A stretch of 64,000 nt of DNA. Source: Halococcus salsus. Its GTDB lineage: Archaea > Halobacteriota > Halobacteria > Halobacteriales > Halococcaceae. Position 1 is the first letter of the stretch; each line of letters starts with the position of its first letter. The translations under genes and the position numbers were made by a program. The stretch spans positions 609,216-673,215 of the forward strand of contig NZ_JAAAJC010000001.1 in NCBI RefSeq assembly GCF_009900715.1, in the 5' to 3' direction. The notes under the pieces were generated by a model that ran no database searches, was not told the origin of the DNA, and worked only from the letters and a program-made list of their open reading frames with translations. This document shows, in pieces, positions 16,996 through 51,406 of this stretch.

Positions 16996-17053
16996 CCGGT
17001 CGAACGTGGGATGCGACCGGGTTTCGGGCCGACGTCGGTGGGAAAGAATCAAT

Positions 17054-17063
17054 CCTTATATGA
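17054..17063 (+). promoter_or_regulatory. Probable TATA box of the nuo operon
   Basis: CCTTATATGA lies 35-44 bases before the nuoA ATG, in an AT-rich patch within GC-rich surroundings. It would give a transcription start about 10-15 bases ahead of the start codon. Confidence 0.55.
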
Positions 17064-17097
17064 GTGGGTTCCCAAGCCCGAACACGAGACAGACCAC

Positions 17098-17502
17098 ATG
17101 AATCAATGGATAGCCGTCGGGGCGCTGGCGCTGGTCGCGATCGTCATCCCGCTGTCGTTCATCGTGATATCGAGCCTGTTGCGACCCAGCGTTCCCGAAC
17201 AAGGAAAGACCGCGGTCTACGAGTCGGGCGAGGTCCCGACCGGCGACACCCGGATCCGGTTCAACATCCAGTACTACATGGTCGCGTTGCTGTTCCTCGT
17301 CTTCGACATCGAGACGGTCCTGATCTTCCCCTGGACCGTCATCTACCGCGACGCGGTCGCGGAGTTCGGGCTGGCCTCGACGCTCGGCCCGATGCTGGTG
17401 TTCATCGCGGTGCTCGTGCTCGGGCTCGCGTGGGCGTGGCGCAACGGCGCGGTCGAGTGGGTCCGTAACGAGCAGCCGAACACCCAACGGACACGACAAT
17501 GA
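17098..17502 (+). CDS. nuoA: NADH-quinone oxidoreductase-like complex I subunit A
   Basis: 134 residues with three membrane helices. The loop motif YESGEVPTGDTRIRFNIQYYMVALLFLVFDIETVLIFPW is the diagnostic NuoA signature. NuoA helps form the junction between the peripheral arm and the membrane arm. Its TGA overlaps the nuoB ATG by 4 bases. The more upstream start in this frame is rejected because it lacks a helix-compatible leader. Confidence 0.93.
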   Translation: MNQWIAVGALALVAIVIPLSFIVISSLLRPSVPEQGKTAVYESGEVPTGDTRIRFNIQYYMVALLFLVFDIETVLIFPWTVIYRDAVAEFGLASTLGPMLVFIAVLVLGLAWAWRNGAVEWVRNEQPNTQRTRQ

Positions 17503-18191
17503 GTAGCGACAACCAGACCACGACGCCGGACGTACAGACGACCCAGGAGGCGCGGATGGGTGGCGGCACCGACAACCGATTCAACTCCAAACTCCGCGAG
17601 ACGTTCGGTGCCTCGCCGTTCATCCTCACGAAGTTCGACTCGTTCATGAACTGGGTGCGTGGCTCCTCGATGTTCATGCTCCAGTTCGGTATCGCCTGCT
17701 GTTCGATCGAGATGATGCACACCTACGCGGTGAAACACGACCTCGACCGGTTCGGCTCGGGGGTCCCGCGGGCCTCGCCGCGCCAGGCCGACGTCATCAT
17801 CGTTCCGGGGACCATCGTCTCGAAGTTCGCCCCGCGGATGAAGCGGGTCTACGACCAGATGCCCGAACCCAAGTTCGTGGTTTCGATGGGCTCGTGTACG
17901 ATCTCGGGTGGCCCGTTCCAGCAGGGCTACAACGTCGTCAAGGGCGCAGAACAGGTCGTTCCCGTCGACATCCACGTCCCCGGCTGCCCGCCGCGCCCGG
18001 AGGCGCTGGTCTACGGTGTCGCCAAGCTCCAGGAACGCATCACGAACGGCGAGTCCGCGCCGGTGACGGTGAAGCCCTACGAGCTCGAACGGTTCGGCGA
18101 CCTCGAACGCGACGAGCTCATCCAGAAGCTCGCCGACGACATCGACGAGGACACCCTCGTCATGCGGTACAACTGGACTGATTCGCCATGA
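17499..18191 (+). CDS. nuoB: Complex I subunit B
   Basis: 230 residues. The N2 iron-sulfur cluster ligands are present: tandem Cys67-Cys68 in FGIACCSIEMM, Cys133 in GSCTISGGPF and Cys163 in PGCPPRPEAL. A 40-residue acidic and polar N-terminal extension is typical of halophiles. The protein carries electrons to quinone. It is coupled by ATGA overlaps to nuoA and nuoCD. Confidence 0.95.
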   Translation: MSSDNQTTTPDVQTTQEARMGGGTDNRFNSKLRETFGASPFILTKFDSFMNWVRGSSMFMLQFGIACCSIEMMHTYAVKHDLDRFGSGVPRASPRQADVIIVPGTIVSKFAPRMKRVYDQMPEPKFVVSMGSCTISGGPFQQGYNVVKGAEQVVPVDIHVPGCPPRPEALVYGVAKLQERITNGESAPVTVKPYELERFGDLERDELIQKLADDIDEDTLVMRYNWTDSP

Positions 18192-19861
18192 GTTTGGAAC
18201 GACCCGAACGGTCGAGCCACGTCGGCGCGACCGAGGACGGCCTCGACTACGACGCGCTCGCGGAGCTCCTCGGCGACACGGTCGTGAGTCGCGAGAGCCA
18301 CCTGAACGCGGAGGCGTTCGTGATCCGGCCCGACGAGGTCCAGAACGCGCTGTTCGCGCTTCGCGACGAGGCGGGCTTCGATCACCTCTCGAACGTCACG
18401 GCTCAGGAGTACGCCGACCGCTACGAGAGCATCTACCACCTGAAGAAGTTCGCCGACCCCACCCAGGAGGTCTCGGTGGTGGTACCCGCGGCGAAGGACG
18501 ACCCCGTGAGTCAGACCGCAGTGCCGGTCTACGCGGGCGCGGACTGGCACGAGCGCGAGGCCTACGACCTCGTCGGGATCCGCTACGAGGGCCACCCCGA
18601 CCTCCGACGGATCCTGCTGCCCGAGACCTGGCAGGGGCACCCATTGGGGCTCGACTACGACCAGGACGAACCCCAGGTCGTCACCCTCGAATCCCACGCC
18701 AACCCGCTCGAAGAGGACCACCGCGAGGACGGTGCGGACACGATGTTCCTCAACATCGGGCCCCACCACCCCGCGACCCACGGCGTACTCCACGTCGAGA
18801 CGGTGCTCTCGGGCGAGCAGGTCGCCCACATCGAGCCGGACATCGGCTACCTCCACCGCTGTGAGGAGCAGATGTGCCAGACGAAAACCTACCGCCACCA
18901 GATCATGCCCTACCCCGACCGGTGGGACTACGTCTCCGCCGGGCTCCTCAACGAGTGGGCCTACGCGCGAACCGCCGAGGACCTCGCCGGACTGGAGGTC
19001 CCGGAGTACGCCCAGGTCATCCGGACGATGGGTGCGGAGCTCTGTCGGACCGCGGCCCACCTCCTCGCGCTCGCGACGTTCGCGCTCGACGTCTACGGCG
19101 AGTTCACCGCGACGTTCATGTACGCCTTCCGCGACCGCGAGATCGTCGAGGGGATCCTCGAAGACCTCACGGGGCAGCGCCTGATGTTCAACTACTTCCG
19201 GCTCGGCGGGGTCGCGTGGGACCTCCCGGAGCCCCGCGAGGAGTTCTTCGAGAAGATCCGGGACTTCCTCGACGGGATGCCCGCGAAGCTCGACGAGTAC
19301 CACGACCTCATCACCTCGAACGAGCTGTTCCAGCTCCGGTGTGTCGACACCGGGGTGCTCGACACCGAGACCGCGAAACAGTACGGCGCGACGGGGCCGG
19401 TGGGCCGCGCCTCGGGTGTTGACTACGACGTCCGGCGCGACGATCCATACGGGTACTACCCCGAACTCGACTGGGACGTCATCACCGCGACCGAGGGCGA
19501 CAACTACGCCCGCGTGCTCTGCCGGATGCAGGAGGTCGAACAGTCGGCGCGGATCATCGGACAGTGTGTCAACCTCCTCGAGGACTGGCCCGAGGACGAC
19601 CGCGAGGTTCAGTCGAACGTGCCGCGAACCCTCCGGCCCGACGAGGACACCGAGATCTACCGTGCGGTCGAGGGCGCGAAGGGCGAACTCGGGATCTACA
19701 TTCGGGCCGACGGTACCGACAAACCCGCCCGGTTCAAGATCCGAAGCCCGTGCTTTTCGAACCTCCAGACCCTGCCCGCGATGGCCGAGGGCGGGTACGT
19801 CCCCGACCTGATCGCGGCGCTGGCGAGCATCGACATCGTGCTCGGCGAGGTCGATAGATGA
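18188..19861 (+). CDS. nuoCD: Complex I fused subunit C/D
   Basis: 557 residues. The NuoC-like part covers residues 1 to about 170 (DWHEREAYDLVGIRYEGHPDLRRILLP). The NuoD-like part, with the quinone pocket, covers about 180-557: NIGPHHPATHGVL, GYLHRCEEQMCQTKTYRHQIMPYPDRWDYVS and GATGPVGRASGVDYDVRRDDPY, ending ALASIDIVLGEVDR. The C-D fusion is usual in haloarchaea. The start and stop both overlap neighbours by 4 bases. Confidence 0.95.
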   Translation: MSLERPERSSHVGATEDGLDYDALAELLGDTVVSRESHLNAEAFVIRPDEVQNALFALRDEAGFDHLSNVTAQEYADRYESIYHLKKFADPTQEVSVVVPAAKDDPVSQTAVPVYAGADWHEREAYDLVGIRYEGHPDLRRILLPETWQGHPLGLDYDQDEPQVVTLESHANPLEEDHREDGADTMFLNIGPHHPATHGVLHVETVLSGEQVAHIEPDIGYLHRCEEQMCQTKTYRHQIMPYPDRWDYVSAGLLNEWAYARTAEDLAGLEVPEYAQVIRTMGAELCRTAAHLLALATFALDVYGEFTATFMYAFRDREIVEGILEDLTGQRLMFNYFRLGGVAWDLPEPREEFFEKIRDFLDGMPAKLDEYHDLITSNELFQLRCVDTGVLDTETAKQYGATGPVGRASGVDYDVRRDDPYGYYPELDWDVITATEGDNYARVLCRMQEVEQSARIIGQCVNLLEDWPEDDREVQSNVPRTLRPDEDTEIYRAVEGAKGELGIYIRADGTDKPARFKIRSPCFSNLQTLPAMAEGGYVPDLIAALASIDIVLGEVDR

Positions 19862-20988
19862 GGTCCGGCGTCCTCCTCCAGCAGAGCAACGCGACCAACG
19901 CCACGAACGCGACGAACGCCTCCGCGGGCGCGAGCGGCGGCACGACGTTTCCCGAGCTCCTGAGTCAGACTCTGGGATTCGGTCCCAACCCCGACCCGGG
20001 TCTCCAGTTCCTCTTCGGGCTGGTGGGCGCGGCGCTGATCTCGGTGCTCTTCCTCTCGGTCGTCGCGGTCGCGGGGATCTGGGGCAAACGAAAGATCACG
20101 GCGGCGTTCACCGACCGTATCGCGGTCAACCGGATCGGGCCGTTCGGCCTCCTGATCGTGGTCGCCGACGCGGTCCGACTCCTCTCGAAGGAGGTCATCA
20201 TCCCCGACGGTGCCGACCGGCCGGGCTTCGACATCGGGCCGATGCTCGTGCCGTTCTCGGCGATCCTCGGCTTCGCGGTGATCCCGCTCGGCACCAACCT
20301 CCAACTCGCCGACCCCGAGACGGGCTTCGTCTTCGTCTTCGCGGCCTCGTCGCTCGCCTCGCTCGGTCTCCTGCTCTCGGGCTACTCCTCGAACAACAAG
20401 TACTCGCTTCTCGGCGGGCTCCGCGCGCTCGCCCAGAACCTCGCCTACGAGATCCCGCTCGTGGTGACGGCGGCCTCGGTGGTGCTGTTCGCCGGCACCC
20501 TCCAGATGAGCGAGGTCGTCGCCGTCCAGGCCGAACCGCTGTTCACGGTCGCCGGGGTCTCGATCCCGTCGTGGTTCGCGTTCGTGAACCCGTTCGCGTT
20601 CGTGCTGTTCATGATCTCGAACCTCGCCGAAGTCGGCCGGAACCCCTTCGACACGCCCGAAGCGCCGGGCGAGCTCGTCGCGGGGTTCATGACGGAGTAC
20701 TCGGGCGCGTACTTCGTCCTGCTCTATCTCGGGGAGTTCCTCCACATCTTCCTCGGCGGGGCCATCGTGGCCACGCTGTTCCTCGGTGGACCCGCCGGGC
20801 CGGTGCTGCCGGGGATCGTCTGGATGCTCATCAAGATCCTCGCGGTCTACCTGTTCACCCAGTGGATGCGCTCGGCCATCCCCCGGATCCGGATCGACCA
20901 GCTGATCCAGATCGGCTGGAAGGGCCTGCTCGTGATGAGTTTCGCCAACCTCGTGCTCACGGCCGTTATCGTGGGACTGATCGCGTAA
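19858..20988 (+). CDS. nuoH: Complex I subunit H (membrane)
   Basis: 376 residues with about eight helices. The conserved quinone-channel loops are [26 protein letters not shown] and [30 protein letters not shown]-like, with [11 protein letters not shown] following. The N-terminus carries a low-complexity outer segment with three NAT repeats (near residues 10-20), which are potential N-glycosylation sequons (Asn-Ala-Thr). The haloarchaeal complex lacks NuoE/F/G, so the electron donor is probably not NADH. Confidence 0.94.
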   Translation: [376 protein letters not shown]

Positions 20989-20997
20989 CTACAACCA

Positions 20998-21459
20998 ATG
21001 ATAGGAATCCTCAAATCGATGGCGACGACGATGAAACACGCGCTCGACGGCGAGACCTTCACCGTCGAATACCCGGACGTCCCGCCCGAGGTCAGCCCAC
21101 GATTCCGCGGGATCCACAAGTTCAGCCAGGAGCGCTGTATCTGGTGTCGCCAGTGCGAGAAGGTCTGTCCGAACGACACGATCCAGATCGTCCAGGACGA
21201 CCAGCGAAACGGCGAGCAGTACAACCTCCACATCGGTCAGTGCATCTACTGCCGCCTCTGTGAGGAGGTCTGCCCCGTCGACGCGATCATCCTGACCCAG
21301 AACTTCGAGTTCACCGGGGACACCAAGGACGACCTCGCGCTCAACAAGGAACAGTTGAAGAACGTACCGTGGTACAAGGATATCGACCCGCTCGAATCAC
21401 GCGAACCCGATCGTGGCGTCTGGATCGGTGACGGCGAAGGCGAAGTCGATTACCAGTAA
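20998..21459 (+). CDS. nuoI: Complex I subunit I, 2[4Fe-4S] ferredoxin-like
   Basis: 153 residues. Two complete cluster motifs are CIWCRQCEKVCP (Cys47, 50, 53, 57) and CIYCRLCEEVCP (Cys82, 85, 88, 92). The tail DIDPLESREPDRGVW ends IGDGEGEVDYQ. Normally nuoJ1-J2-K-L-M-N follow directly; here they do not. Instead the last 25 codons plus stop are repeated 212 bases downstream. The gene itself looks intact and of normal length. Confidence 0.95.
   Translation: MIGILKSMATTMKHALDGETFTVEYPDVPPEVSPRFRGIHKFSQERCIWCRQCEKVCPNDTIQIVQDDQRNGEQYNLHIGQCIYCRLCEEVCPVDAIILTQNFEFTGDTKDDLALNKEQLKNVPWYKDIDPLESREPDRGVWIGDGEGEVDYQ
21382..21459 (+). repeat. nuoI 3' tail, parent copy of a duplication
   Basis: These 78 bases (last 25 codons plus stop of nuoI) match 21594-21671 at 77 of 78 positions. 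The single difference is GGC versus GGT, both glycine. Confidence 0.9.
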
Positions 21460-21510
21460 TCATACGTCGCGCGGTGCGAGGTCGACCGAAGCGAGGGCGG
21501 TCTTTTTCAT

Positions 21511-21581
21511 CCACGTTTTTGCCGTGAGTGGTTTCGAAGCGAGCAAACGCGAGCGAGAAATCCCGAACGGGAAAAAGGTGG
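21511..21581 (-). repeat. Hairpin half of the dispersed intergenic element (copy C)
   Basis: On the minus strand CCACCTTTTTCCCG...GGCAAAAACGTGG forms a long-arm inverted repeat, followed by ATGAAAAAG and CTTCGGTCGACCTCGC. It matches the order in the elements at 7.1 kb and 32.6 kb. It lies exactly in the spacer between the two nuoI tails. Confidence 0.6.
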
Positions 21582-21593
21582 GGTCACGAGGAC

Positions 21594-21671
21594 ATCGACC
21601 CGCTCGAATCACGCGAACCCGATCGTGGCGTCTGGATCGGTGACGGTGAAGGCGAAGTCGATTACCAGTAA
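21594..21671 (+). pseudogene. Duplicated 3' end of nuoI, no start or promoter
   Basis: This is a second copy of the nuoI terminal coding segment including the stop codon. Upstream of it the reading frame loses nuoI identity within a few codons (WYKD of the parent becomes an altered HED), so it is not a whole gene. Its near-perfect identity implies a recent event or gene conversion. No nuoJ follows. Confidence 0.85.
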
Positions 21672-21781: not shown

Positions 21782-22126
21782 ATGAGTGGATCCGAAACGG
21801 ACGACCCGACGGAGGACACCGAGTCGGCGACGGAGGAGGAACTCGCGGAGTTCGTCAAGCAGTCGTCGACCCGAACGGCGGTGCTCACCCAGCTCGTCAG
21901 CGGCCCGGCCACGCCCGGCGAGATCGCCGAGGACCGCTCGGTGACCATCGACGGGAACACGGCGAGCACGAGCAGCACGAGCAGCACGAGCGCCGAATCG
22001 GCGGCCGAACAGCTCCAGGAGAAGGGACTGGTCGAACTCCTCGAAACGGACGAGCTCCGGGTGTTCAGCCTCACGGCGCTCGGCGAGAGCGTGCTGTTCT
22101 CGCTCAACCAGCAGGACGAGGTCTGA
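21782..22126 (+). CDS. Winged-helix transcriptional regulator-like protein
   Basis: 114 residues. After an acidic N-terminus (about 25 residues), SSTRTAVLTQLVSGPATPGEIAE looks like the first helices of an ArsR/MarR-like winged helix. AAEQLQEKGLVELLETDELRVFSLTALGESVLF supplies the recognition helix and wing. Between them lies a Ser/Thr stretch (TASTSSTSSTSAES), encoded by about three repeats of AGCACGAGC, that interrupts the expected helix-turn-helix. This may be a repeat expansion in a surface loop. Targets are unknown. Confidence 0.7.
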   Translation: MSGSETDDPTEDTESATEEELAEFVKQSSTRTAVLTQLVSGPATPGEIAEDRSVTIDGNTASTSSTSSTSAESAAEQLQEKGLVELLETDELRVFSLTALGESVLFSLNQQDEV

Positions 22127-41069: not shown

Positions 41070-41912
41070 ATGTCGTTTCAGTTACCCGACCTCTCCGGCC
41101 GGACGGCGTTCGTGACGGGGACCACGCGCGGCATCGGCAAGCGGATCGCGCTCACGCTGGCCGAGGCGGGCTGTAACGTGGTCTCGACCGGGAAGACCGT
41201 CGACGATTCGGACAGCGATCTGGAGGGCACCATCCACGACACCGCCGCGGCGTGCGAGGAGCGCGGTGTCGAGTCACACGCCATCCAGTTGAACCTCCGC
41301 AACCCGGACGAAATCGAGGCCGCCGCCAAGGAGGCCATCGAGGTCTTCGACGAGGTCGATGTCGTGATCAACAACGCGAGCGCGATCCAGCTCGCGAACG
41401 TCGCGGACCTCCCGGCCAACCGCTTCGACCTCCTGAACGAGGTCAACGTTCGAGGAACGTATCTCACGATTCGGGCATTCTTGCCTCACCTCAAGGAGCA
41501 CGGCGGCCACGTCCTCACCAATTCGCCCCCAGTCACGATGGACCGCGCGCCGGGGAAGGCGGCCTACGCCTGGTCGAAGCTCGGCATGACCTTCGTGACG
41601 CTCTCGGTCGCGGCCGAACTCCAGGGGACTGACGTGGCCGCCAACTGCTTCTGGCCCGTGACGATAATCGACACCCGGGCCTCGCGCTACTTCGGGATGG
41701 GGACCGAGGACGACTGGCGAACGCCCGCCATCGCCGCCGACGCGGCGTGTGCACTCCTCGACCGCGATACCGACTTCTCGGGCCACGCGTGCTACGACGA
41801 GGCGGTCCTCCGCGAAGCCGGCATCGCCGACTTTTCACCCTATAACGTCACCGACGGCGACCCGCAGCCGCTCTCGGCCCAGCTGTTCGACCCGGACTAC
41901 GAACGACCCTGA
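41070..41912 (+). CDS. SDR-family oxidoreductase, HSDL2-like
   Basis: 280 residues. VTGTTRGIGKRIA, INNASAIQ, and YAWSK with the Tyr-Lys pair. The body (NLLNEVNVRGTYLTIRAFLPHLKE, ANCFWPVTIIDTRASR) resembles hydroxysteroid dehydrogenase-like 2, without its SCP2 domain. An SCP2-domain protein is encoded separately near 61.3 kb. It diverges from the FabG-like gene across 85 bases, so a shared control region is possible. Confidence 0.83.
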   Translation: MSFQLPDLSGRTAFVTGTTRGIGKRIALTLAEAGCNVVSTGKTVDDSDSDLEGTIHDTAAACEERGVESHAIQLNLRNPDEIEAAAKEAIEVFDEVDVVINNASAIQLANVADLPANRFDLLNEVNVRGTYLTIRAFLPHLKEHGGHVLTNSPPVTMDRAPGKAAYAWSKLGMTFVTLSVAAELQGTDVAANCFWPVTIIDTRASRYFGMGTEDDWRTPAIAADAACALLDRDTDFSGHACYDEAVLREAGIADFSPYNVTDGDPQPLSAQLFDPDYERP

Positions 41913-48438: not shown

Positions 48439-48507
48439 TCAATCCCAGAAGGACTGGGTCCGGGCGTACTGGCGCTCTTGGGAGAGGATGTCTCGATAGA
48501 AGTCGTC
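48439..48507 (-). pseudogene. Duplicated 3' end of the Lhr-type helicase gene
   Basis: 69 bases encode DDFYRDILSQERQYARTQSFWD plus stop on the minus strand. They are identical in protein to the last 22 codons of the helicase, whose copy is 48569-48637. 64 of 69 bases match, and all five differences are synonymous third positions. There is no start codon or promoter. Similarity continues weakly past the stop, so this is part of a tandem duplication of about 130 bases (48378-48507 versus 48508-48637). Confidence 0.88.
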
Positions 48508-48539
48508 GCTCCTACTGGAAGCAGTAGTTGCTTGCGCGC

Positions 48540-48556
48540 GGTCGCCTACGGCGACC
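48540..48556. terminator. Perfect 7-bp hairpin downstream of the helicase stop
   Basis: GGTCGCC-TAC-GGCGACC lies in the spacer between the two helicase tails, 13 bases past the real stop. It could terminate helicase transcription. A weaker version lies at the equivalent place in the duplicated copy. Confidence 0.4.
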
Positions 48557-48568
48557 CCACGGTGGGGC

Positions 48569-51406
48569 TCAATCCCAGAAGGATTGGGTCCGCGCGTACT
48601 GGCGCTCTTGGGAGAGGATATCCCGGTAGAAGTCGTCCTCGTTCTCGCGGAGTTTGGCGATGATCCGCGCGGCGTTGTGGGGGCCGACCCCACGGGCGGC
48701 GAGCGCGATGACGGCCTGTTTGCCGTGACTCTGGACCAGGGTCGCGGCCTGGTAGGCTCGCTGGGTCTGCTTCTCCTGCTCGTCGTCCTTCTCGTCGGCC
48801 TTGACCGCCGCGACGACCTCCTCGGCCCACGGGTTGAGCGCCGCGATACGGGTCGAGCCACAGAACGGACACTCCGGTTGGTCGGGGATCCGCCGCACCT
48901 CCTGGGTTCGGTCCCACTCCTGACAGTGGAGACAGAACAGTAACATTCGGTCCTCCTGGATCCGCTCCCGCACGGTGTCGATAACGCTCGCGTCGGCGTT
49001 CTCGGGTGCGAGCAGTTCCCGGCCCGACGACCGACCGTCGATCCCAACGGGGGTGTGTTCGGTGTGGAGCACGACCTCGATCTCCCCGTCTCGGACCCCC
49101 GAGAGCACCGTGCCCGTCGTCTCGATCGCGAGGTCCTCGTGGAAGATCTCGCGGACGGCCTCGTCGTACACAGGTGTGTCTTCGAGCGCCGTGAGGAGGC
49201 GGTCCCGGCCGAACCGGCCATCTCCCCGCCAGGACTGGAGCGCGCCGAACGTCGCCGCGACCTGGGCGAGCTTGAACTTCAGCGCGTCCGAGTTCTTGAG
49301 GCTGAGTTCGATGATCCCCGCGACGTGTTCGGGCTCGGTCTCCCGGAGCACGCCCTCGATATCGGGGCCCGAGATCCCGCGCGGGACGTCGAGTTCGATC
49401 CGATAGGGGTCGATCTCCAACCCCACCGACGAGCCCGTCTGCTGGCCCAGCAGCGCCGAGAGCACCCGCCCGAGGGTCTGGTTGGTGGTGTGGCCGAAAC
49501 AGGCGTTCACGACGATGCTTCGGGGCTCGTACTCCACGACCACCCGCTCGTCGGTCGGCATCGGGCTCCCCGACTCGACCTGCTTTTCGAGCGGGTCGAG
49601 CGCCTCGCCCGCGGTGTACTCGTCGGTGGGATACCGGTCGGCGAGGTCGGCCGCCACTGCCGACCGGGACTCGCCCGACGCGAACGCCTCGCCGACCCAG
49701 CCGCGGATCTCGCCGACCTCGCCCGCGACGGGTTTCGGGACCGGAATCTCGCTGCCGGTCCAGGAGGGGACCTCGCCCGTCGGGTCCTCGATCGGGCTGA
49801 CCTTCACCTCGCTCTCCTCGTCGTCGACCTCCGCGATCCGCCACATCTCCCCCCGCTGGATGAACGTCTCGCCGGGCCCCGCGAAGTTGACCACGAACCG
49901 CTCGTCGAGGCTCCCGATCGCCCGACCCGAAGCCACGTCGGAGACGGTGTAGGTCTCCTCGTCGGGGATCATCGAGAGGTTGGCGTAGAAGTACTGCCAC
50001 GTGCCGCCCGACTTCTCCAACCTGTCCAGATCCTCGTCGAGCCAGAGGACCCGATTGCCCGAGAGTTCGCGTACCACGTCTCGAAAGTCGTCCTCCGTGA
50101 GGTCGCGGAACGGGTAGGCCCGCGTGACGAGGTCGTAGGCCTTCCTGGCGCTGATCTCGCCGAAGTCCATCACGAGCCCTGCGATCTGGTTCGCCACCGT
50201 GTCGAGACTGCCGTGATGAATCTCGGCGGGTTCGACCAGCCCCTCGTGGGCCCGCCGACAGATCGCGAGGGCTTCGAGCGTGTCGTCGGGCCGGGTCGTG
50301 AGGACTGTGCCCGAGGAGAGCTTGTCCGAGCGATGACCCGCCCGTCCGACCCGCTGGAGCAGGCGGGCGACCTCGCGCGGGCTCTGGTACTGGATCACGT
50401 GGTCGACCCGCCCCACGTCGATCCCGAGCTCCATCGAGGAGGTGCAGAGCAGGCCATCGAGTTCGCCGGCCTTGAACGCGTCCTCGACTTCGATCCTCGC
50501 CTCCTTCGAGAGCGAGCCGTGGTGGACTCCGATGGGGAGATCGAGCGCGTTACACCGTGAGCCGAGGGCCTCGGCGGTCTGTCGGGTGTTGACGAATATC
50601 AGGGTGGACGCGTTTTCGCTCACCAGGTCCCGGATCGCCCGGACGTGACTCGCGAGGTCGGGGTCGCTCGCGAGCTTTCCCGCGAGGGTCTCGTCCTCCG
50701 CGGTGACCCGTGGCTCGCGAACCCGGACGTCGAGTCGGCTCCCGACGTCGACTTCCATGATCGCACAACCCCGACCGCCGGTGAGGAACTTCCCGACCTC
50801 GCCGGGGTCGCCGACGGTCGCCGAGAGCCCGACCCGCTGGAACGGCCCCGAGAGCTCGCGGAGGCGTTCGAGCCCGATCGTGAGCTGCGCCCCGCGTTTC
50901 GACGCCGCGAGCTCGTGAACCTCGTCGATCACGACGTGCGAGACGTCGGAGAGCGCCTTCCGGAGCTTCTCGCCCGTCAGCATCGCCTGGAGTGTCTCGG
51001 GTGTGGTCACCAGCACGTCCGGCGGGTCGTTGGCCTGCTGCTGGCGGTGATACTGGGTGGTGTCGCCGTGTCGGACGTCGATCTCGAGTTCTAACTGGTC
51101 GCCCCACCAGTCGAGCCGGTCGCGCATGTCGCGGTTGAGCGCGCGGAGCGGGGTGATGTAGAGCGCGCCGATCCCGAAGCGCTCCTCGCCGGCGAGCGCG
51201 TCGAACACCGGCAGCATCGCGGTCTCGGTCTTTCCAGTCCCCGTAGGTGCGATCACCAGCCCGTCCTTCCCGTCGGCGAGCGGCGGGATGGCGGCGCGCT
51301 GTGGCTCCGTCGGGGTCTCGAACCCCCGTTCGGAGAGCGCCGCCCGGACCCGGGATCCGAGGTGTGTGAAGGCCGCAGAACCGCCGGCGGCCTCGCTCTC
51401 TGCCAT
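48569..51406 (-). CDS. Lhr-type ATP-dependent helicase
   Basis: 945 residues from MAESEAAGGSAAFTHLG. Superfamily 2 core: PTEPQRAAIPPL, Walker A APTGTGKTE (53-61), DEVHEL, SATVGD, helicase C region with FVNTRQTAE and QRVGRAGHRS. The Lhr winged-helix and C-terminal cysteine region is CLHCQEWDRTQEVRRIPDQPECPFCGS. Lhr helicases act in archaeal DNA repair and recombination. The gene tail is repeated just downstream. Next comes the RPA cluster, with a fitting theme of DNA maintenance. Confidence 0.93.
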   Translation of the reverse strand: MAESEAAGGSAAFTHLGSRVRAALSERGFETPTEPQRAAIPPLADGKDGLVIAPTGTGKTETAMLPVFDALAGEERFGIGALYITPLRALNRDMRDRLDWWGDQLELEIDVRHGDTTQYHRQQQANDPPDVLVTTPETLQAMLTGEKLRKALSDVSHVVIDEVHELAASKRGAQLTIGLERLRELSGPFQRVGLSATVGDPGEVGKFLTGGRGCAIMEVDVGSRLDVRVREPRVTAEDETLAGKLASDPDLASHVRAIRDLVSENASTLIFVNTRQTAEALGSRCNALDLPIGVHHGSLSKEARIEVEDAFKAGELDGLLCTSSMELGIDVGRVDHVIQYQSPREVARLLQRVGRAGHRSDKLSSGTVLTTRPDDTLEALAICRRAHEGLVEPAEIHHGSLDTVANQIAGLVMDFGEISARKAYDLVTRAYPFRDLTEDDFRDVVRELSGNRVLWLDEDLDRLEKSGGTWQYFYANLSMIPDEETYTVSDVASGRAIGSLDERFVVNFAGPGETFIQRGEMWRIAEVDDEESEVKVSPIEDPTGEVPSWTGSEIPVPKPVAGEVGEIRGWVGEAFASGESRSAVAADLADRYPTDEYTAGEALDPLEKQVESGSPMPTDERVVVEYEPRSIVVNACFGHTTNQTLGRVLSALLGQQTGSSVGLEIDPYRIELDVPRGISGPDIEGVLRETEPEHVAGIIELSLKNSDALKFKLAQVAATFGALQSWRGDGRFGRDRLLTALEDTPVYDEAVREIFHEDLAIETTGTVLSGVRDGEIEVVLHTEHTPVGIDGRSSGRELLAPENADASVIDTVRERIQEDRMLLFCLHCQEWDRTQEVRRIPDQPECPFCGSTRIAALNPWAEEVVAAVKADEKDDEQEKQTQRAYQAATLVQSHGKQAVIALAARGVGPHNAARIIAKLRENEDDFYRDILSQERQYARTQSFWD

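Follow-up and report, generated by a model that had tools for sequence, protein, structure and literature searches.

The repeated tail of nuoI in Halococcus salsus belongs to a haloarchaeal class of gene tails duplicated around a terminator-like element

Elements that integrate at the 3' end of a gene and leave that end restored are well known, as exemplified by prophage e14 in icd and by the many elements found at tRNA genes. Integron gene cassettes represent another arrangement, characterised by attC, attI and the integron integrase. In haloarchaea, inteins are known homing elements (PMC4071816), and the short elements described in Haloquadratum comprise SMRs and PATEs, which cause no target duplication, and MITEs of the conventional kind only (PMC3119063). 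The T5C motif has been tested as a terminator in a Haloferax volcanii reporter and proved strong, at 95% termination (PMC7237163). Haloarchaea are described as recombining frequently, both within species and between them (PMC4500145, PMC3990103). We found no description in the open-access papers searched of the class reported here, in which a short element lies between two copies of the tail of a gene. As we found no published name for it either, the naming is introduced here.

The window analysed is a stretch of 64,000 nucleotides of the Halococcus salsus genome (hereafter G000, a draft of 30 contigs), corresponding to positions 609216-673215 of contig 1. According to the list of open reading frames, it harbours nuoA-B-CD-H-I (17011-21459, forward strand), of which nuoI is the last gene (20998-21459, forward strand, 153 aa, with 4Fe-4S dicluster domains identified by Pfam). 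The initial annotation had reported that the end of nuoI recurs downstream, and this holds: positions 21382-21459 and 21594-21671, at an offset of 212 bp, are identical at 77 of 78 bases, and the sole change is a synonymous C/T difference in the third base of a Gly codon. The match can be extended to 83 bases with two mismatches (81/83). We denote as T1 the functional 3' tail of nuoI including its TAA stop codon (21377-21459, forward strand) and as T2 the orphan copy with its own stop codon (21589-21671, forward strand). Between them lie 122 bp of non-coding DNA and a short junction, all described here on the forward strand. The left part, L, is a hairpin-forming segment of 43 nt immediately 3' of the stop codon (21460-21502), and such TCRTACGRCGRGC left ends are similar in several genomes. 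It is followed by the 79-nt core of the element E (21503-21581), which conforms to the family pattern TTTTTC-ATCCACG-TTTTT-hairpin-AAAAAGGTGG, reads TTTTTCATCCACGTTTTTG...hairpin...GGGAAAAAGGTGG and is terminator-like in both directions; the forward TTTTTC, at 21503-21508, is located behind the nuoI stop codon as in T5C terminators. The 7-nt junction GGT+C+ACG (21582-21588) consists of three gene-matching bases and one inserted pyrimidine, after which the tail copy begins. The open reading frames downstream of nuoI code for a winged-helix-like protein (21782-22126, forward strand, with a weak, below-cut-off Pfam match to HVO_A0261_N) and a copper-binding protein. No third copy of the nuoI tail is present in the whole G000 genome, where the next match is a chance-like 34 bp, and an unfiltered repeat scan of 0.86 Mb of this genome recognised a single tail-element-tail locus, that of nuoI. 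The repeat does not result from chance, with no other repeat of the same anatomy combined with E in approximately 600 kb of related loci.

The same arrangement is found at nuoI in the sister species G002 and G006, whose genomes were assembled separately, and in other families (G059, G064, G073, G080, Halorientalis salina L141 and Halovenus L147). The version seen in G041 and G066 measures 30 bp, and G001 has a relic. The DNA between the nuoI tails is homologous across the carrier genomes. A GGTC junction is common to G000, G006, G064, L141 and L147, and the module of this type, present in several genera, precedes four different downstream contexts, namely an HTH gene (G000 and G002), a ferritin-like gene (G006), nuoJ (G064 and L141) and another region (L147). 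The winged-helix-like gene also directly follows nuoI in the relatives G004, G007 and G009, which are devoid of E. As a separate observation, the interval separating nuoI from nuoJ in relatives (for example L058, L061, L063, L065, L075, L076 and L087) is a hotspot of insertion, where ferritin-like, PIN-domain-like, ParA-like and other genes are found in different genomes.

The repeat had initially been placed exactly where the nuo operon is broken. The position is correct, and in G000 nuoJ is located on another contig (C2), but the coincidence is fortuitous: nuoJ and nuoI are likewise apart in three relatives with no tail copy (G004, G007 and G009), and the break of the operon is therefore a separate matter. 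Conversely, nuoJ is kept downstream of nuoI despite the tail copy in G006, G059, G064, G073 and G080. Transport of nuoJ-N as the cause of the repeat is thus rejected, and the proposal that a rearrangement carried nuoJ-N away and left a scar is not supported; the suggested search for a third tail copy adjoining nuoJ was negative in G000. The other initial proposal was a mobile element that integrated at the 3' end of nuoI, restored the gene with its own tail and then left. Relatives do show the element and the tail copy inserted exactly behind the stop codon with the gene intact; however, the element is still there, in the form of the 122 bp of hairpin DNA. An integrating element was close in spirit, but integrase is absent and many other genes show the same arrangement, each with its own tail, which rules out an integration scar specific to nuoI. 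Dozens of cases make up this class of haloarchaeal modules, and the nuoI repeat is one of them.

E is a structured non-coding element, 90-165 bp long across the family, that carries T5C-type terminator signals and ends with AAAAAGGTGG. We searched for it with the pattern TTTTTNNNCCANNTTTTTN{25,54}RAAAANGGTGG, which gave 0-9 matches per genome, and its reversed version, used as a control, gave 0. Among 295 genomes of the phylum, all the matches listed fall in the genus or the order of G000, with 0 outside the order in the searched genomes of the phylum, and the family was met here only in Halobacteria. Folding of the right part of E is strongly favoured over that of shuffled sequences in the 171 members (mean z of -5.5, 97% below -2), and CCAC-TTTTT and AAAAA-GTGG pair up to enclose a variable hairpin. 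The left 45 nt have a family-wide mean z of -1.6, against -0.2 in a control stretch. Members of the family carry TTTTTC in the forward direction and usually CCACCTTTTTC in reverse, their right end thus bearing a reverse-strand T5C. Since T5C is a strong terminator in Haloferax volcanii, E is probably a two-way terminator, as judged from its sequence. Three other identities were considered for E or its parts and rejected: CCACCTTTTT as a general gene-end signal, as this sequence is infrequent and in most instances belongs to E; a known Rfam family, with a best match of 24.7 bits for a gathering threshold of 46.5; and a viral origin, with 0 matches to the exact pattern in the viral contigs of IMG/VR.

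Approximately half of the first 30 E loci had a copy of the tail of the upstream gene directly after AAAAAGGTGG, and the genes differed from one locus to the next. Among 171 distinct E from many haloarchaeal genomes, 76-80 have the 3' tail of the upstream gene on both sides as a direct repeat, depending on the cut-off score (>=25 or >=20), compared with 2-7 of 342 in mismatched controls that paired the upstream flank of one E with the downstream flank of another. Most of these repeats span the stop codon of an open reading frame on the same strand, with T1 beginning 24-135 nt before the stop codon and ending near it or up to 58 nt past it, and their lengths range from about 28 to more than 130 nt (about 10-45 codons). 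T2 starts 0-14 nt after GGTGG, most frequently 4 nt, and the junction is thus nearly fixed. The host genes are housekeeping genes, including nuoI, ileS, argF, etfA, hisH, gyrA and the citrate synthase gene. NCBIfam confirmed EtfA, PheT, ornithine carbamoyltransferase, malic enzyme/phosphotransacetylase, HisH, GyrA, citrate synthase, GatB and HisF as hosts; for the IleS-like synthetase, its support is weak and comes from related exception models only, and the remaining host clusters were named from their C-termini only. Roughly half of the E copies have no detectable T2. In 37 of 91 such copies the stop codon of a convergent gene is found 0-10 nt from the right end, a situation that occurs in 0 of 80 copies followed by T2.

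Some loci are arrays of the type T-E-T-E-T, and in others a truncated second E follows T2. When 0.8 Mb of G071 were scanned with no filter, we recognised about six tail-element-tail loci (at 41555, 121976, 397534, 919839, 995898 and 1149181). The repeat scan of the same genome also picked up a CRISPR-like array with a repeat of approximately 32 bp, CTTCAACCGCCCAAGGGTCCGTCTGAAAC (G071:C1:1018788-1022046). As for the gene named from its C-terminus 'RRHIAKPLVRGGFDAPTHPER*', its 3' end carries two units in G059 (L105) and one in G087 (L360); in three congeners (G022, G049 and G094; L363-L365) it has a plain end, with other DNA before the same downstream neighbour.

The junction has a signature. 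In 44 of 75 cases, T2 starts with three bases identical to the gene, followed by one (36 cases) or two (8 cases) extra bases, mostly C or T. The probability that a 3-base match at +1 would occur by chance in 36 of 75 cases is negligible, bearing in mind that copies belonging to one gene cannot be counted as independent and that 3-base identities are short. The +1/+2 signature recurs across many genes, three of which (etfA, argF and nuoI) show it at two positions. We considered whether GGTGG shares microhomology with the part of the gene immediately preceding T, and rejected this since most cases show none. The T1-T2 period modulo 3 is random (29/27/24), which leaves no translated role for T2; readthrough or in-frame use of T2 was rejected on the same basis.

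How T1 and T2 differ is informative about their history. Over 66 pairs, all but one of which align without gaps, the differences are distributed among codon positions 1, 2 and 3 as 26:19:129. If T1 were coding and T2 neutral, about half would be expected at third positions (binomial P of approximately 7e-11, relatedness being ignored), and this synonymous bias rules out that T2 is an old neutral duplicate. Within the nuoI set, stop codons have switched among TAA, TAG and TGA yet remained stop codons, and T1 and T2 of one genome show 0-9 differences over 75 sites, against 4-21 between the T1 of different genomes. Such coding-like differences would result from recombination, with one tail coming from a donor gene and the other being that of the resident, or from conversion homogenising both.

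The best view of gain and loss is provided by argF and ileS in a genus of 29 species, where 17 species have the tail-E-tail arrangement at argF and 18 have it at ileS; for either gene, this distribution corresponds to 6 Fitch changes on a tree built from two genes. Modules are readily missing in close relatives. We made five comparisons with empty sites in this genus, aligning the DNA after the T2 stop codon with that after the stop codon of the plain gene; they gave scores of 115 (G371 versus G353, shuffle maximum of 16) and 134 (G369 versus G372) for ileS and of 180, 170 and 174 (G370, G360 and G358, all versus G373) for argF, with shuffle maxima of at most 18. In all five pairs the alignment runs base for base and begins at base 0 on both sides, immediately past T2 in the carrier and past the plain stop codon in the non-carrier. 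Carriers and non-carriers thus differ by exactly [L-E-T2], from stop codon to stop codon. The ileS locus of G371 is particularly telling. Its E is identical to that of the distant congener G039 over a short stretch (67/67) and its T2 has one mismatch, with coding sequences 91% identical; its T1 is its own allele, the DNA after T2 is unrelated to that of G039, and the sister species G353 has an empty site. The match to G039 combined with the empty sister indicates a gain by transfer, and sequence comparison thus shows that at least one module has moved between species of a genus, with one clear donor-recipient case (G039-like to G371). In G373, the argF module is missing inside a clade of carriers, which suggests precise loss. 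When the two genes are compared, E at ileS and E at argF are 66.8% identical in the same genome and 70.7% identical across genomes; E copies of one genome are no more alike than those of different genomes, and spread is therefore bound to the gene. In G362, the T2 of argF has lost its stop codon. At ileS of G357 (L430), a diverged tail copy directly follows the stop codon and E is absent, perhaps representing a module remnant devoid of E.

On the basis of sequence comparisons, we propose that [L-E-T] is a gene-addressed module spread between species by homologous recombination via the tails, a reading to which we assign a probability of about 0.6. T1 and T2 would represent homology arms. The module would enter the same gene in another cell by homologous recombination at the tail, either as a circle by one crossover or as linear DNA by two, and entry would yield T-L-E-T behind an intact gene with no need for homology downstream. 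Recombination between T1 and T2 might then either remove the module without a scar or generate (T-E)n arrays. In G000, nuoI would thereby remain intact and have a terminator-like, bidirectional hairpin behind it. Several observations count against this model. About half of the E have no T2, and the 37 of 91 that abut a convergent stop codon fall outside it; the +1 signature of the junction is not accounted for; the truncated second E after T2 at some loci is what an in-situ tandem duplication would yield; and a second example in the window has another type of spacer with no T5C.

This second example is the tail of a gene named from its C-terminus 'FYRDILSQERQYARTQSFWD*' (48569-48637, reverse strand), which is copied at 48439-48507, the whole spanning 48439-48637. 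The 69-bp copy, 130 bp downstream, is identical at 64 of 69 positions, and the five differences are all at synonymous third positions. The spacer is a different hairpin of 61 nt devoid of T5C, and a degraded second spacer follows the second copy. The duplication is also found in G003, and for the same gene in G002 no second tail copy was reported. In G024 (L459, G024:C8:86500-95500), three further copies of the tail come after the homologous gene, approximately 1.5-2.1 kb apart. The low-GC units that they delimit each contain three related genes, coding for a lipoprotein-like protein, a small protein and a 254-aa protein; two of the cargo proteins, including the 254-aa protein, have no Pfam match. 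The G024 arrays suggest that gene tails may also ferry cargo genes. It is tempting to speculate that these modules represent a new type of mobile DNA, namely integrase-free modules addressed by the tail of one housekeeping gene and recombined by the host, with gene-bound spread, arrays, scarless exit and maybe cargo as in G024; we regard this broader proposal as possible, with slightly less than even odds.

The main rival is in-situ tandem duplication at the hairpin. In that scenario, E is an immobile terminator whose hairpin makes replication or repair slip back into the tail; this produces T-E-T-E, the second E subsequently decays, and ordinary allele exchange accounts for the rest. Arrays of two or more units, the truncated second E, a breakpoint fixed at the right base of the hairpin and the half of E copies with no T2 speak in its favour. 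However, native DNA with no second E comes right after the T2 stop codon in the empty-site pairs, the G371 module arrived as an [E-T2] unit matching a distant species while the sister is empty, and the tail differences look allelic rather than neutral. We therefore consider this scenario rather unlikely. The precise, stop-to-stop insertion could alternatively be the work of a recombinase acting in trans, for which the gene tail would serve as an att site, with E and the cargo units being non-autonomous cassettes; the approximately 2-kb, low-GC, three-gene units of G024 between four tail copies would fit this idea. Nevertheless, neither E nor the nuoI locus contains an integrase-like gene, and none turned up among those cargo genes of G024 that were tested. 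Tails are specific to each gene, have no core in common and vary in length from about 28 to more than 130 nt; we consider integrase-driven cassettes improbable.

The long-maintained near-identity of T2 to T1 at nuoI, and the reverse-strand T5C of E that adjoins T2, might also suggest that the tail copy is functional, for instance as an antisense RNA against the 3' end of the gene that terminates at CCACCTTTTTC, and that selection or conversion preserves the identity of T2 to T1. The random period modulo 3 argues against a translated role, and the absence of modules from close relatives, the argF T2 of G362 with no stop codon and the ileS T2 of G357 with no E fit poorly with a conserved function, such that we hold this explanation to be very improbable. 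Finally, the draft status of G000 raised the question of an assembly artefact. The same structure is found in independent assemblies with genome-specific sequences, including records titled complete chromosomes such as that of Salinibaculum litoreum (L176), and an artefact is refuted for the class; for the copy in G000, whose arrangement recurs in the separately assembled G002 and G006, it is extremely improbable.

If the gene-addressed module is confirmed, it would reveal a form of mobility for DNA with no recombinase gene, in which a conserved gene end serves as the address, host recombination does the work and the gene is unharmed. It would bear on the slotting of new genes and terminators into archaeal operons and on gene flow between haloarchaeal species. 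As for annotation, orphan gene tails would be neither pseudogenes nor assembly errors, and thousands of haloarchaeal gene ends could be examined together. The modules share features with several known systems. As with integrative elements at gene 3' ends, E is located between two tail copies, the tail is duplicated with a restored gene, and precise excision would follow. Unlike them, the module has no integrase or other recombinase gene, usually no genes at all, is about 120-165 bp long, and occurs at many target genes, each with its own tail and no common att core. E is short, transposase-free, palindromic and dispersed like the haloarchaeal SMRs, PATEs and MITEs (PMC3119063), but tens to more than 100 bp of gene tail are duplicated around it (28 to more than 130 nt in 76-80 of the 171 cases), it is found at stop codons, and its spread is bound to a gene rather than occurring across genes, as reflected by the identities of 66.8% within and 70.7% between genomes for two genes. 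It resembles T5C terminators (PMC7237163) in its hairpins and its TTTTTC behind stop codons, with the differences that known terminators have no copy of the gene tail behind them and that E is a putative terminator. Like integron cassettes, E is an imperfect palindrome directly after a stop codon and forms arrays; in contrast, neither integron integrase nor attI was seen at the nuoI locus, and all units carry the tail of the same gene. The parallel with inteins (PMC4071816) concerns the fixed site in a conserved gene and the horizontal movement between homologous alleles. Unlike an intein, the E module codes for no endonuclease or other protein, sits behind the gene and would bring its own right homology arm.
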